A stretch of DNA of 64,000 nucleotides from Methylomonas sp. LL1 (GTDB lineage: Bacteria > Pseudomonadota > Gammaproteobacteria > Methylococcales > Methylomonadaceae). Each line of letters begins with the position of its first letter. The stretch's first letter is position 1. A program made the translations under genes and the position numbers. Shown here piece after piece: positions 41 to 6,911 of this stretch. A model generated the notes under the pieces. The model saw only the letters and a program-made list of their open reading frames with translations. It did not search any database and had not been told where the DNA came from. The stretch is taken from contig NZ_CP064653.1 of the NCBI RefSeq assembly GCF_015711015.1, forward strand, positions 2,232,001 to 2,296,000, written 5' to 3'.

Positions 41-322
41 CTGAAAACCTCCTGTTAACCGGTATGGTGCTGGCGATAAAGCCGGCTCTGTCGAACGCGC
101 GGCCGGTATCGATTGGCGGTTAATTCGCCTGATACGTGCGGTTATTGATTATGCAAGTGTAGGCCAAGTTTGAGGCGACGACATGGCTTAGGCTTGATAA
201 ACAAACTCGGATGCGTTGAATTTGCGCCTCGGCTATCTCCTGTATCGACAGACTCCGGTTGTAGAAAACTCGGAGGACTGCCCCGTGAATATATGGGTCA
301 GTGCTTCCAGTTTAATGCTGGC
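41..322. other. Intergenic stretch without a recognised gene
   Basis: Apart from the ribosome site of the partial leftward gene at 49-54, no convincing gene is visible here. A plus-strand open frame from 170 runs antisense through the YdhR-like gene and has no family resemblance. The interval contains the 3' untranslated region of the leftward operon whose last gene ends at 323. Confidence 0.4.
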
Positions 323-634
323 TTATTCCGCAGGGTAAAATGGAGAATGCATACCGATATTGGCAGCTTGGGTGATGTCGCCGTCGAACAGCTTGACCGA
401 CAGATTGCCGTTGACCTGTTTGGTAAAAGGAATCAGCAAGCCGTCGATATAATTTTGCGCGTTCTCGATCGAATCGAATTCGTAAAAACCACCCACGGTT
501 TTATTGTTGACGCCGCTTAACCAGGTTTTCGATTTCAAACCCGGATACTTTTTCATCTCGACATTGATAGGCTGCCAATCGATTTGATCGAAAGGAATAG
601 CGACTTGAAATTCCGCATACAAAAATATTTTCAT
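323..634 (-). CDS. YdhR-like small protein (dimeric alpha/beta barrel)
   Basis: A 103-residue protein resembling the YdhR family (putative mono-oxygenases of the dimeric alpha/beta-barrel superfamily). The family pattern is visible in the centre: a K-T-W-L segment around residues 36-39, then the GGFYEF strand and a helix resembling the YdhR section KVW...GGIYLF. No cofactor-binding motif is expected in this fold. It is the last gene of the leftward operon with the SDR, carbonic anhydrase and DUF938 methyltransferase. YdhR's substrate is not established, so the function is open. Confidence 0.6.
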   Translation of the reverse strand: MKIFLYAEFQVAIPFDQIDWQPINVEMKKYPGLKSKTWLSGVNNKTVGGFYEFDSIENAQNYIDGLLIPFTKQVNGNLSVKLFDGDITQAANIGMHSPFYPAE

Positions 635-677
635 CAGTCAGTCTCGGTAAGTTATTGAGTTATAGCCATTTGAATGC

Positions 678-1412
678 TCAAAATGGCTCTTTGAAGGGTC
701 TTAAATCCAGTTCATGGGTCCAGGCGCTGGGATGTTGCCGATGCAACTGCCAATAGGTTTCGGCGATCGCATCGGGTTGTAACAAACCATCCGCTCCCTT
801 GGCGGCAACGAACCGGGAAAACTGCCGGTGCGCGCGTTCGCCGTCAATCACCCCATCAATGACCGCATGCACCACATGGATGCCTTGCGGCCCAAACTCC
901 CGTGCCATGCCTTGCGCCAATGCCCGCACCCCGGCCTTGGCAGCCGAAAACGAGGTAAATGGCGGTTTGGCTCGCAACGACGCGGTGGCGCCGGTAAAAA
1001 ACAAGCTGCCCTGTTGTTGCGGCAACATGTGCTTGATGGCCTCGCGGCCGAACAGAAAAGCGCCGAGACTGTTTTGCCGCCACAAAGCGGTGAACATCTC
1101 CACGTCGGTTTCCAGCAGCGGCGCGGACAAATTACTGTCGACATTGTAGGCAGCAATTTCCAAAACCTGGCCGTCGGCGGTGGCTGTCTCGAACAAGAGT
1201 TTTACGTCGCTTTCGCTGGTCGCATCAGCGACCACCGGGATTGCCATGCCACCGGCGTCGGCGATGGCGTCCGCTACCAAGGCCAGTTTCGCCGAACTGC
1301 GCCCGGCGATTACCACTTGCAAGCCTTCCGCCGCAAAACGCCGGGCCAACGCCGCGCCCAAGCCCTGTATCGGACCAACCCCCAATACCAGCGCCATTCT
1401 GTTCGTCGTCAT
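678..1412 (-). CDS. SDR-family protein lacking the catalytic tyrosine
   Basis: A 244-residue short-chain dehydrogenase/reductase fold. The nucleotide-binding turn is an atypical G-V-G-P-I-Q-G-L-G at residues 11-19. Where classical SDRs carry YxxxK, this protein has F155-S-A-A-K159, so the proton-donating tyrosine is replaced by phenylalanine while the lysine remains. This is the signature of the SDR_c10 subgroup (cd05373), whose reaction is unknown. It probably binds NAD(P) but may not do standard alcohol/ketone redox chemistry. The start ATG overlaps the stop of the carbonic anhydrase gene by one base (TGATG), indicating translational coupling. Confidence 0.85.
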   Translation of the reverse strand: MTTNRMALVLGVGPIQGLGAALARRFAAEGLQVVIAGRSSAKLALVADAIADAGGMAIPVVADATSESDVKLLFETATADGQVLEIAAYNVDSNLSAPLLETDVEMFTALWRQNSLGAFLFGREAIKHMLPQQQGSLFFTGATASLRAKPPFTSFSAAKAGVRALAQGMAREFGPQGIHVVHAVIDGVIDGERAHRQFSRFVAAKGADGLLQPDAIAETYWQLHRQHPSAWTHELDLRPFKEPF

Positions 1413-1990
1413 CAGCTTGCCCGTCCGGCCTCGGTGGCGGCGGATACTTCAAGCAAGCGTCCGGATTTAACGTCGTAAATAAAGCCGTATACCGGAATAT
1501 CCGCCGGTACCAATGGATGAGATTTGATCCGTAGCACATCTTCCAAAACACTCTCCGCCTGGTCTTTGATGGTCAGCCAGTTGATGTACTTGCCTTCGGA
1601 GCAGCCTGGACCTTCACAGCTATCGTGCCAGCCAGTCGCATCGACGCTGGCGGTTTTCAGGCTCTTGCTCAACAAGTCACTCATGATCTCATTGTTGAAG
1701 GTTTCCATGCCGCAATCGGTGTGATGGATCACGAACCATTCACGGGTGCCCAGCAGTTTGTAGGAAATCACCAGTGAACGAATGGCATCGTCGCTGGCTC
1801 GACCACCGGCATTGCGAATCACATGAGCATCGCCTTCCGACAGGCCGGCATATTTGGCCGGGTCCAGCCGCGCATCCATGCATGTCAGAATCGCAAAACG
1901 GCGGCCCGGCGGCATCGGCAAATCGCCTTTGTCGAAACCGGTGCTGTAGCCCTGGTTAGCGTGTAAAACTTCATTCAGTATTGTGCTCAT
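1412..1990 (-). CDS. Beta-class carbonic anhydrase
   Basis: A 192-residue zinc enzyme interconverting CO2 and bicarbonate in the cytoplasm. The zinc ligands are visible: C37 in CMDARLDP, then H90 and C93 in HHTDCG. The D39/R41 dyad that activates the bound water is also present. The length and the spacing match the small YtiB/Rv1284-like beta class. An AGGA ribosome site precedes the ATG. The gene sits between DUF938 and the SDR, with one-base overlap to the latter. In a methanotroph it may supply bicarbonate from methane-derived CO2 (inference). Confidence 0.93.
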
Positions 1991-2001
1991 GTTTGTTCCT
2001 G

Positions 2002-2655
2002 TTAGCCTCGGCCGAAAACCAAGGAAAAGTTATTGGCCGGCATATCGATGATTTCTTTTAACACCATGCCATGGTTGGCGGCGGCTTGTTTCAGATCGGC
2101 GACGTCTTTTAAACCCCACTCGGGGACTTGGTGCGAGGCCAGGGTTTTATGAAATTCCTCGTTGGATTCGGTGGTGAAACCGCCTTCGACTTTGAACGGG
2201 CCGTAGATCAGCAAAATACCGTCGTCGCCGAGCAAGTGCGAAGCGCATTCCATCATACCGTCGGCAATTGAGATCGGCGCGACTTGAAAAATATTGATAC
2301 AGAAGATGGCGTCGAAACTGCCTTTATCGCCGGGGTTGAACCAGGTATCGGGATCGGTCAAATCCAGATGTACCGGATCGGCGATGTTGTCGTTACCGTG
2401 ATCGGCGGTCAATTGTTTGATGTTATCGAACACTTCCTGATCCTTGTCGGTCGGATGAAAGTGTAAGTGATCGAAATGCGGCGCGAAAAAGTTGATATGC
2501 ATGCCGCTGCCGCTGGCCATTTCCAATACCCGACCCTTGTCTTTGGGTAACTTCTCTTTTAACACGCCCAAGATCGGTTCGCGGTTGCGATTGCCGGCCC
2601 AGGCCACGTATTCGCTCAGCGGGTGCGGGTTCAATGGCGGTTTGTTGTCACTCAT
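2002..2655 (-). CDS. DUF938 SAM-dependent methyltransferase-like protein
   Basis: A 217-residue protein of the DUF938 family (PF06080), a Rossmann methyltransferase-like group. Motif I appears as [11 protein letters not shown] near residues 43-53, and an acidic residue follows in the second strand (HPTDKDQ). The substrate is unknown for the family. It is the first gene of the leftward operon, with a good GAGGAG ribosome site six bases upstream of the ATG. The start of the DUF is typical ([14 protein letters not shown]), so the start is secure. Confidence 0.85.
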
Positions 2656-2716
2656 GTTGATCTCCTCGAAAGATTATTTATAGTTTTATGAAAAACCAGC
2701 TTGATCGGTTTTCCGT

Positions 2717-2738
2717 GAAAGCCGCGCTATCGCGGTTT
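2717..2738. promoter_or_regulatory. GC-rich dyad in divergent promoter region
   Basis: Inverted repeat GAAAgCCGCG-ctat-CGCGGTTTC in the 114-bp gap between the leftward DUF938 gene and the rightward sigma-54 activator gene. There is no T-run, so it is more likely an operator or 5' UTR hairpin than a terminator. No binding protein is assigned. Confidence 0.35.
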
Positions 2739-2769
2739 CTCCAAGGCATACTGCAATCCATGGGCCATC

Positions 2770-4431
2770 ATGCATAAAAAATCTATTTATATAAATATCA
2801 ATAGCTTACAAAATACGCATTGGACCAGCCGTGAATTCATGCTTCAATCAGTGAAAAATAATTTCATTTTAACGATAGCCATGAACACACATGATTTTTC
2901 CCGGATTTCTCCGGTGTTTTTCCTGCAAACCTTCATCCTGGAACTGATGCATGCCTGCGAGCAGGAAGGCGGCGATTATTGCGAATCGTTGATCGAACGC
3001 ATCGCCAAGAGCGCCGGCCTGTATTTCGAACAGACTTATCGCGACGAATATCAACGGCTGGGCGAATTGGACCAGGAGGATTACATTGATTTGATACTGG
3101 CGTTAAAAAACCACATCGGCGGTAATTTTTCATTGGCCTCGGTCGAGGCCGGCACCATTACCGTGGTTAACAACCGCTGCCCTTTCGGCGACGGCGTGAC
3201 TAATTTCCCCGAATTGTGCCGGATGACCTCCAGCGTGTTCGGCGGCATCGCCGCGCGCAATTTCGGTTACGCAAAAGTCGAAATCCGTCAGAGTATCGCC
3301 AGGCAAAACGGTAGTTGTGAAGTTTGCATTCACACCCAGCGCGATAGCGCCATCGACAAGCCGGGTCTGGAGTATCGCCGCGCGGATCAGCCGGAAGACA
3401 AACTGGAAATGGCCGCGCTACATTCGCGCATCGAAGAGCGGATGCGCAACGTCTGGTGGAGCAAACCCAGGCAGCATGCCGCCAAACCGGCACCGGCAAT
3501 CATCGCCAAATCGCCGGCCATGCAAAAAGTCCTGCAGCAAGTCGAAATCATTGCCCCGACGTTGGCAACGGTGCTGATCAATGGCGAAACCGGGGTCGGC
3601 AAGGAATTGATCGCGCGGGCCATACACGCGATGAGCGAACGCGGTCATAAACCATTCGTGGCGATCAATTGCGGGGCAATCCCGGAAAGCCTGATCGAAA
3701 GCGCACTGTTCGGCCACGAAAAAGGCGCGTTCACCGGCGCCATTGAAGTACACCAAGGCTTTTTCGAGCGCGCCGAGGGCGGCACCTTGTTTTTGGACGA
3801 AGTGGACGCCTTGTCACCCGCCGCGCAGACGCGCTTGCTGAGGGTGATCCAGGAAGGCGAGATGGAACGGGTCGGCGGCAAGCACACCTTGAGCGTCGAT
3901 GTCCGCATTGTTTCGGCCAGCAATCGCTCCCTGGAACAACATGTCGAGCAAGGCTTATTCCGCCAGGACTTGTTTTATCGCTTGAATGTAGTGCGACTGT
4001 GGATACCGCCCTTGGCCCAGCGCCCGGAAGACTTGCCGCATCTGGTACAGCTGATTCTAAAGCGGCTGAACGACAAATACGGCAAGAATGTGCAATCGGT
4101 CAGCCGCGAAGTGATGGGGCAAATCCGCGCCTATAGCTGGCCCGGCAATGTACGCGAATTGGAGAATAGCTTGGAACGCTGTGTGTTGTTCTGCAAGGGC
4201 AACGAACTGACCGGGCTGGAATTGGATCAAAAGCCGGTAACCACGACCGGCAACGACTGGCATGCGCACAAACAACGGATTCTGGCCGAAGCGGAACAAG
4301 TCTTTTTAAAGCAAGCAATGCAAACCTATCGCGGCGACGTCAAACAGGTGGCCGCCGTTATGGAGCTAACGCCCAGAGCGGTCTACGGCAAGCTGAAAAA
4401 ATACGGTTTAAGCTCCGGCCAGTTCAAATAG
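2770..4431 (+). CDS. Sigma-54-dependent transcriptional activator with V4R-like sensor
   Basis: A 553-residue bacterial enhancer-binding protein. The N-terminal ~230 residues form a sensor region with a Cys-containing stretch (CPFGDG, LCRM and SCEVC), resembling the V4R/haem-NO-type small-molecule domain. The AAA+ domain follows, with Walker A GETGVGKE near residue 272 and the sigma-54 contact loop GAFTGA near residue 320, then the GNVREL segment and a C-terminal Fis-type HTH. It should activate RpoN promoters in response to an unknown ligand. The start is uncertain: ATGs at 2770, 2839 and 2881 are in frame and none has a clear ribosome site. The one at 2881 (MNTHDFSR) fits domain architecture best. 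Confidence 0.88.
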
Positions 4432-4452
4432 CCAAAATTACCCGGAACAAAA

Positions 4453-4570: not shown

Positions 4571-4864
4571 TTACAGCGCGGCCGGCCTACTGTTTTCTCC
4601 GGCACCGGCCGTCTGTCCAAGGCCGTACCAATCCAACTTGCGAGTGGTCAGCATCGCAATGCCCAACAACACAAACATCAGCAGCGAACCCAACACCAGC
4701 GCGTTGTCTTCCGATTCCAACAACACATAAAGACTGGCGAACAATCCGGCCAGCAAGGCGCCGGCGCTGAAGCCGCTATTTGCCAACACATAGATCAGCG
4801 TATCGGCAATGGCTGGTTCGTCCTCGACGATCAGGATGCGCTTGGATGAAATGGGCAAATTCAC
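4571..4864 (-). pseudogene. In-frame deletion scar: start of creB joined to end of creD
   Basis: A 97-codon open frame (GTG start) made of two unrelated pieces. Residues 1 to about 32 are the beginning of a CreB-type response regulator, with the acidic pocket in ILIVEDEPAIADTL. From about residue 33 the sequence is the last membrane segments and tail of CreD (SEDNALVLGSLL, then TTRKLDWY). In other bacteria creB, creC and creD lie in this order, so one deletion removing most of creB, all of creC and most of creD, and preserving the frame, explains it. The phospho-acceptor Asp and the output domain are gone. A small membrane peptide could still be made, but regulatory function is lost. Confidence 0.75.
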
Positions 4865-5167
4865 GGTACTAATACGTCATACAGGCGGCATCAACAAGCC
4901 AGCCACTTTTTCCAGGGGCTGTAAACAATAGTGCGTTTGTTCCGGCGGGATGACTGCGACATGATTTAGGTTGTATTTGTCGATCCATCTCGAAGGAGTC
5001 AAAAATAATCGACCAAGCATAGCCGCTAGCGGGCCGATTTGCAGAAAATATCGGCATAGCCCACCCGGCATAAGCCGTTCCGAGCGCCGTAAAGCGCCAG
5101 CCCCTGGTTTAAAAAAAATCCCTATGGGAGAATGGTCCTTTCTCAACCATGCTGAAAAGGTGGCACC
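4865..5167. other. Intergenic region between cre scar and chemoreceptor
   Basis: About 300 bases with no gene I can support. A minus-strand open frame (4877-5146, 89 codons) ends in a protein-like stretch but has no ribosome site and no recognised family. It could be debris of the same cre deletion. An AAGGTGG ribosome site for the chemoreceptor is at the right-hand end. No sigma-28 promoter consensus was found. Confidence 0.4.
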
Positions 5168-6802
5168 GTGAATTGGTTCATGAATTTAAGCATTCGCTGG
5201 AAACTTCAGTTCAGTTTTTTTGCCGTGACCATGATTACAACGATCTACAACCGGTTGCTGGCATCTTTCGAACTGATAAAGATGGTTGAAATCGCCGAGT
5301 CGGGTCACGCCTCGCCTGAAGTCATCACCCAACTGCGAGCCAATCACAGTGCTTACATCTTCAATTCCTTTTGGGAATCCGGGCTGGAATTCGTATTCCA
5401 GTTTTTTCTAATTGCGTTCATCGCCAATATGTTTGCCCGCCCCATCATCCATCTGTGCTATTCGCTGGAATCGGTGGAAAAGGGAGACCTGACCAAGCAC
5501 ATTGCCAACACGTCCCAGGATGAAGTCGGCGTATTACAGAAAATATTCAACAATGTGCTCAACAAGCTGAATAACATCATGCGGGAAATCGATGCGAGCG
5601 GCAAGAGTATGGGACAGTCGGCCTTCCAGGTTGCTAAAATTTCCAATGAAATCGCCGACGTCAGCAAACGCGAGGAAAACCGTTCCGCGGAAGTGGCTTC
5701 CGCCATGCAGAGCCTGTTTCAGATATCCTCCGACGTACAAAGGCTAGGCATCGAAGCCTCGAACAAGGCTCGGCAGGTCGACAGATTAGCCCAGGACGGG
5801 ATCGAATATGTGCATATGAATATCGGCGCCATGCAGGAGACCGTTCAGGAAGTGAATCGGGCATCCCATGAAATCCAGGAACTGGAAAATTCGGCCAAGC
5901 ACATACACCTGATCATCGACACCATCACCGACATTGCTTCTCAAACCAACCTGCTTGCCCTGAATGCGGCGATCGAAGCCGCCCGCGCCGGCGAACAAGG
6001 CCGAGGTTTCGCGGTCGTGGCGGATGAAGTCAGGAAACTCGCCACCCGCACATCCGGTTCGGCCGATGAGGTCAACCAAATTATTCGACATCTTTCCGAC
6101 GAGGTTCAGCGAGTGACGGACACGATGAGCGTCATTGTAGGAAAGGTGGACGCCAATCAGAAAGCGGCCGAAAAAACCACCGAGGCGATTGAGCAAATCT
6201 CGGGGAACGTGCTGCAAACCGCCCAGGCAAACCAATCCATCGCCGATGCCAGCAATCAGCAATTGGATCAGTTTCGGCAACTGCAAGCCACCATGGAAGG
6301 CTTGTTTGCCACGTTAAAGGAAAATGCGGCAAAAGTGGAAGGAACGGCCGTGATTGGCGAGGATCTGCGCCGGTTGGCCGCAGGGCTAAATAGTTTGATG
6401 GCCGGCTTTACATTTATTCCCGGCGTGACGATCGATCCCGCGCAGGACGAAAAACGCGAATATCCAAGGGCAAACAACGGCCTGTTGGTTAAAATCATCC
6501 AAGGCGGTCAGCAGGTTGAAGCCGTCACCCGCGACTTTTCGCTGATTGGTCTCAGCATCTGGTTGACGAGGTCCTTGAACTCGAATCAAGCTGTCGATAT
6601 CGATCTTTTCCCAACTCATCGAGACATGGATCAATATATCAACCAAAGCCCGGTGCGTATCAAGGCTCGTATCGTCTGGCTACGCCAGGAGGGCAATCGC
6701 TACCTCTGCGGAGTGGAGTTTCTCGACAAAAACGCTTCAGCTCGGCAAAGAATTCAAGATTGCTTCGATTTTTTCAACAAAAACTCGGAATTTCTGCGCT
6801 AA
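5168..6802 (+). CDS. Methyl-accepting chemotaxis protein with C-terminal PilZ domain
   Basis: A 544-residue transducer that should signal through CheA/CheW at the inner membrane. Two membrane segments (about residues 13-30 and 70-88) enclose a short periplasmic loop of roughly 40 residues, too small for a Cache or four-helix sensor. A HAMP-like stretch and a long coiled coil follow, with the highly conserved MCP tip (about 255-293, containing [16 protein letters not shown]). The C-terminus (about 428-535) is a PilZ domain with RxxxR (REYPR) and DxSxxG (DFSLIG), the c-di-GMP contacts. Start is GTG, preceded by AAGGTGG. It may couple c-di-GMP level to taxis. Confidence 0.92.
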
Positions 6803-6911
6803 GGATTGGGTTGCAAATAATTTCCCTGAATTTCTTGTAGGGGCGATTTTAATCGCCCAGGGCGAATGAATTCGCCCCTACAGGACATTCAAATAGCGGG
6901 AACTTATTTTT
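6803..6911. repeat. Dispersed repeat A, full copy with hairpin
   Basis: A 109-bp sequence whose core is a long imperfect hairpin: TGTAGGGGCGA at about 6836-6846 pairs with TCGCCCCTACA at 6872-6882. A smaller nested stem, GGGCGATTTTAATCGCCC, is at 6841-6858. It ends with ACATTCAAATAGCGGGAAC and a T-rich tail. A shorter copy lies at about 19220-19287. No coding capacity. Confidence 0.75.

Follow-up and report, generated by a model that had tools for sequence, protein, structure and literature searches.

Identity of the reading frame

The stretch of Methylomonas sp. LL1 DNA analysed here (64,000 nucleotides; "the window") carries on its minus strand an open reading frame (ORF) of 97 codons with a GTG start (4571-4864), which an earlier note, made from the letters alone, had read as opening like the response regulator CreB and ending like the inner-membrane protein CreD. 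How did such a frame arise, and is it the remnant of lost genes or a gene in its own right? We compared it with 37 Methylomonas genomes, the window's own and 36 others, and homology searches confirmed its double identity: the first ~31 codons are CreB and the last ~66 are CreD. In a profile search, residues 30-80 matched positions 378-428 of the 428-position Pfam CreD profile (PF06123; E 2.5e-14), covering these positions rather than a full-length CreD and stopping at the profile's last position, its exact C-terminus. The match of residues 10-38 to positions 1-29 of Response_reg was weak (E 0.21) because the fragment is too short, and residues 2-35 were 79% identical to CreB of genome G016 (E 4.6e-11); residues 28-95 were 76% identical to CreD of G017. 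No Pfam match to the output domain Trans_reg_C was found in the ORF, which holds ~31 N-terminal residues of CreB and not the whole protein, whereas CreB of G017 matches both domains, receiver and Trans_reg_C.

The DNA gave the same picture. The creB 5' remnant (4777-4864, minus strand) lies in blastn alignments with 84% identity to G016 over 95 nt and 78% identity to G017 over 135 nt (window 4771-4904), the latter extending beyond the creB start codon into the upstream gene. For the creD 3' remnant (4571-4770, minus strand), identity to creD of G017 is 87% over 4619-4776; what remains corresponds to the variable C-terminal tail. The 5' end of one gene is thus followed by the 3' end of another, in the order and on the strand seen in relatives. 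Mean hydropathy exceeds 1.6 in two segments of the ORF, at residues about 30-50 and 52-75. If made, the product would join the receiver's first strand and helix, without the phospho-acceptor site, to CreD's final two hydrophobic segments, and from its sequence we would expect it to be incapable of signalling.

Cre genes in the genus and in the window's genome

The earlier note proposed comparison with relatives that keep creBCD. All three genes were present in 16 of the 36 other genomes, and none of the 36 carried the fusion ORF. CreD was matched in 17 of the 37 genomes, over nearly the whole profile in those 16 and as the remnant only in the window's genome. CreB matches were confined to the same 16, as was CreC at 83-100% identity, in two pieces in G052 (where it spans two contigs) and in G042 (G042:C1:1633522-1634192, L125). 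The other 20 genomes yielded no creB, creC or creD at the thresholds used, save weak response-regulator matches in G045 and G015 and weak kinase matches, at only 35-38% in the CreC search, in G013 and G047. The three genes are therefore kept or lost together in the genus (all three in 16/36, none detectable in 20), though creD is mostly unlinked. We also observed that creD of G023 reads in two frames with stops (G023:C3:611614-612920, L026); this gene and the divided creC of G042 may represent further Cre decay, or sequencing errors.

The window's genome contained no creB, creC or creD besides the remnant. It has no CreC ortholog: the best kinase was 31% identical, over the catalytic part only, and the sensor part of CreC had no match. 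A glutathionylspermidine (GSP) synthase was likewise not found in this genome. As the missing parts are absent elsewhere in the genome, the proposed loss of the CreBC system stands.

Arrangement of the ancestral operon

In 15 of the 16 cre-bearing genomes, G016 being the exception, creB and creC follow three other genes in the order A-gspS-DUF350-creB-creC (gspS, PF03738; DUF350, PF03994; gene A, no Pfam match). Upstream of the operon in 10 of the 16 are two divergent genes, which by resemblance we take to be cynS and a formate/nitrite-type transporter gene. The window's genome has 82-83% DNA identity at the rpoB locus and is about equidistant from the 14 others compared; rpoB gave no match in G052 or G016.

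The position of creD varies. It begins 768 bp after creC in G052 only (1/16) and 9.4 kb after it in G017 (1/16), lies at least 80 kb away on the same contig in 8/16 and is on another contig in 6/16; the creBC stretches of 14 genomes do not contain it. In the part of PMC4689548 available to us, creB, creC and creD are described together in E. coli, P. aeruginosa, Aeromonas and S. maltophilia. G052, with creD near creBC, resembles those clusters, unlike most members of the genus examined, in which creD lies apart from creBC and the latter pair stands behind A-gspS-DUF350. The earlier statement that the genes normally flank creC is thus true of the other bacteria in that account but of few Methylomonas, with creD adjacent in 1/16. 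The scar itself may be taken as evidence that creBC and creD were linked in this lineage, and the 768-bp spacing in G052 means that the linkage needed for a direct join exists in the genus. We also considered the arrangement of G017 as the direct ancestor. Its creC-creD interval holds a cassette that appears, by resemblance, to comprise an ABC transporter, a porin and AraC. We did not adopt this candidate: a single weak match of 106 nt was all that the window's genome showed of the cassette, the gene that follows it in G017 (orf7346) has its counterpart elsewhere (C2:2554554), and the linked form of G052 explains the scar more simply.

The junction between creB and creD

The two gene ends meet at a 6-nt match, GCGGCT (junction J1; 4771-4776, minus strand), which occurs in the same codon phase in creB of G017 and G052 and in creD of G016. 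The scar reads AATAGCGGCTTCAGC across J1, and the counterparts are AATAGCGGCTATG (creB of G052), AACAGCGGCTAT (creB of G017) and AAACGCGGCTTCAGC (creD of G016); creD of G017 reads GCGGTT, not GCGGCT, at this site, and the microhomology is deduced from relatives' sequences, not from the true ancestor. An overlap of at least 6 nt at a random creB/creD junction has a probability of 0.0021. A short direct repeat at the breakpoint had been anticipated near 4765-4770; it is present, at 4771-4776 instead. Because GCGGCT sits in the same phase in both genes, the reading frame was kept, which upholds the idea that a deletion joined creB to creD in frame. The loss at J1 would amount to about 4.0 kb on the G052 map and 12.6 kb on the G017 map.

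Classical work on deletions was reportedly done by Albertini et al. in 1982. For spontaneous deletions with microhomology in Salmonella, the available part of PMC3411829 classes same-orientation junctions of up to 5 kb as deletions and deduces a cut-off of at least 8 bp for true deletion junctions. J1 resembles these in being a same-orientation junction with a short direct match; it differs from that set in its length (6 nt against at least 8 bp), in having been found in an assembled genome and in being in frame. Our literature search found no paper joining Methylomonas and CreBC, and a search for in-frame chimeric genes formed by deletion found nothing related.

Upstream remnants and a second junction

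The scar extends upstream of the ORF to about 5054 and is larger than first described. Directly upstream of the creB start lies the 3' end of the DUF350 gene (4868-4891, minus strand), its last ~8 codons ending in DAACMTY and the stop. Beyond it is the 5' end of gene A, the first gene of the ancestral operon (4900-4962, minus strand; MSQSSRRNKRTIVYSPWKKWL), covering its first ~21 codons, for which G052 reads MPPSSSQKLTLVYSPWKQLL. Local alignment of this remnant scored 34 against G052, a value reached by 0/200 shuffles (maximum 24), and 29 against G017 (shuffle maximum 25). The two meet at a second junction, J2, between about codon 21 of gene A and the DUF350 gene, which can be placed only to a zone (4891-4904, minus strand); sequence like GGCTTGTTG occurs in both genes there, and this sharing is suggestive only. 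From the end positions in G017 and G052, the loss at J2 comprises gene A, the GSP-synthase-like gene and DUF350, about 2.7 kb.

Further upstream, a conserved promoter-like element (5009-5054, minus strand; core TAGCGGCTATGCTT) is 83% identical to the sequence upstream of gene A in G017, and similar cores occur across the genus alignment and in G016. It is probably the operon promoter and is still present 145 nt upstream of the ORF; a sigma-70 consensus scan returned 0 sites and did not call the element. The gene A and DUF350 remnants are mutually out of frame, and the old translational context has been lost. All remnants are colinear with the operon order, on the window's minus strand. Given the remnants of A and DUF350, one contiguous deletion of creBCD cannot account for the entire scar. 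The earlier note's account of one event therefore fails: J2, upstream, took gene A, the GSP-synthase-like gene and DUF350.

These junctions also bear on whether the assembly has mistakenly joined distant loci, which we regard as extremely unlikely. The fusion is seen in one genome only, as a misjoin would be, but the assembly has 2 contigs and is 100% complete, and yet the rest of creB, creC, creD, gspS and DUF350 is nowhere in it; a pair of colinear junctions, one of which (J1) has a short repeat, is what deletions rather than a misjoin would leave.

A partial deletion in a relative and the order of events

G016, the exception to the operon order, offers an analogue of an intermediate. From its promoter core, its DUF350 tail and an inspection of the joint by eye, we read the locus as follows: after the core comes the beginning of gene A, which is joined within its start-codon region (AATGCCGCC) to the DUF350 tail; creB and creC are intact after the joint, and creB, creC and creD are all full length. 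As in the scar, A, gspS and DUF350 have been deleted upstream of creB while the promoter core and DUF350 tail were kept. The breakpoint in G016, by contrast, is at the gene A start codon, whereas the window keeps gene A to codon ~21, so the two deletions are independent. Aligned over its whole length with the sequence upstream of creB in G016, the region upstream in the scar scored 51 and was not significant as a whole (shuffle maximum 52-53 in 300); the DUF350 tail scored 37 (shuffle maximum 34 in 300). The converse state is seen in G051 (G051:C1:2336000-2348000, L163), which retains intact copies of A, the GSP-synthase-like gene and DUF350 but lacks creB, creC and creD, the three-gene module standing alone in one member of the genus. 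Since G016 has creBC without the first three genes and G051 the first three without cre, the halves of the operon are separable. By analogy with G016, loss of the first half with promoter and creBC kept is a plausible first step.

The locus is thus very probably a non-functional deletion scar of an operon promoter-A-gspS-DUF350-creB-creC, with creD downstream, that suffered at least two internal deletions. Its parts, their order, the junctions and the absence of the full genes are observed directly. The first deletion, of about 2.7 kb, would have run from the 5' end of A to the 3' end of DUF350, removing three genes and bringing the promoter next to creB. The second, between the GCGGCT copies in creB and creD, would have taken out the whole of creC together with the greater part of creB and of creD; the join fell in phase, so that an ORF stayed open. 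The sequence of these steps, slippage or short-repeat recombination as their cause, and the lack of function are what the arrangement suggests. One complex event, such as replication template switching, might instead have produced both junctions together; J1 and J2 are no more than about 130 nt apart, and short matches allow each of them to be aligned. We consider this unlikely, as G016 shows the upstream deletion happening alone and divergence looks greater in the gene A remnant than in those of creB and creD, though the start of A is variable in all genomes.

Age of the scar and selection on the remnant

We compared substitutions over 75 aligned codons (24 creB, 51 creD), with G017 and G016 as the only references. 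At sites where these two agree, the scar differed 14 times: 6 changes in the creB part, all at third positions, and 8 in the creD part, 4 at first and 4 at third positions. Thirteen of the 14 were synonymous (13/14), and the 97 codons contain no stop or frameshift. Neutrality along the whole branch would predict about 40 nonsynonymous changes from the synonymous rate. With equal mutation rates assumed and repeated hits uncorrected, the probability of at most 1 nonsynonymous change is 0.095 for a neutral share of 10% of the branch and 0.036 for a share of 13%; the bound is conservative because repeated hits are uncorrected. This pattern points either to a recent creB-creD deletion, with under ~12% of the branch elapsed since, or to constraint on the fused ORF; of the two, we favour a recent deletion. 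The earlier note held that the scar dates the loss of the two-component system; it provides no more than a bound on that date, conditional on neutrality of the remnant.

Constraint would be expected if the deletion had made a new small membrane protein: the C-terminal hairpin of CreD, expressed with the promoter of the former operon and the start of creB, and maintained by purifying selection once its two-component system was gone. The 13/14 synonymous substitutions in 97 open codons, the two segments of mean hydropathy above 1.6 and the promoter-like element 145 nt upstream would all suit such a protein. A recent deletion gives the same pattern, however, creB and creD having been under selection beforehand; the ORF is found in no other genome, the upstream remnants are out of frame with the old translational context gone, and the sigma-70 scan gave 0 sites. 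We judge this origin very unlikely, and the retained ORF is most likely without function.

As a record of gene loss the scar is clear, if ordinary in kind; the conclusion is well supported, and the history is richer than first seen. The promoter-like element, the gene ends and the two deletion junctions are all preserved in it. With relatives that display the full operon, each half alone (G051 and G016) and the linked creBCD form, it is a readable case of stepwise operon loss.

Genomic surroundings

Neither of the window's flanking blocks matches the flanks of the relatives' cre loci, which means that the two deletions were not the only rearrangement here. On one side, window 321-4432, a block that includes a sigma-54 activator with a MetOD1 domain, is for the most part colinear, at 83-88% DNA identity, with G024:C70:36237-40028; the G024 block has a different right-hand neighbour, and the scar sits at this synteny break. 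On the other, next to the scar, the plus strand encodes a chemotaxis-type protein with MCPsignal and a C-terminal PilZ domain by Pfam (5168-6802). A palindromic stretch, TAGGGGCGATTTTAATCGCCC...GAATTCGCCCC, at 6799-6890 also occurs upstream of creB in G016 (L126, about 5775-5850) and on other G016 contigs, and has the appearance of a repeat dispersed through the genus.
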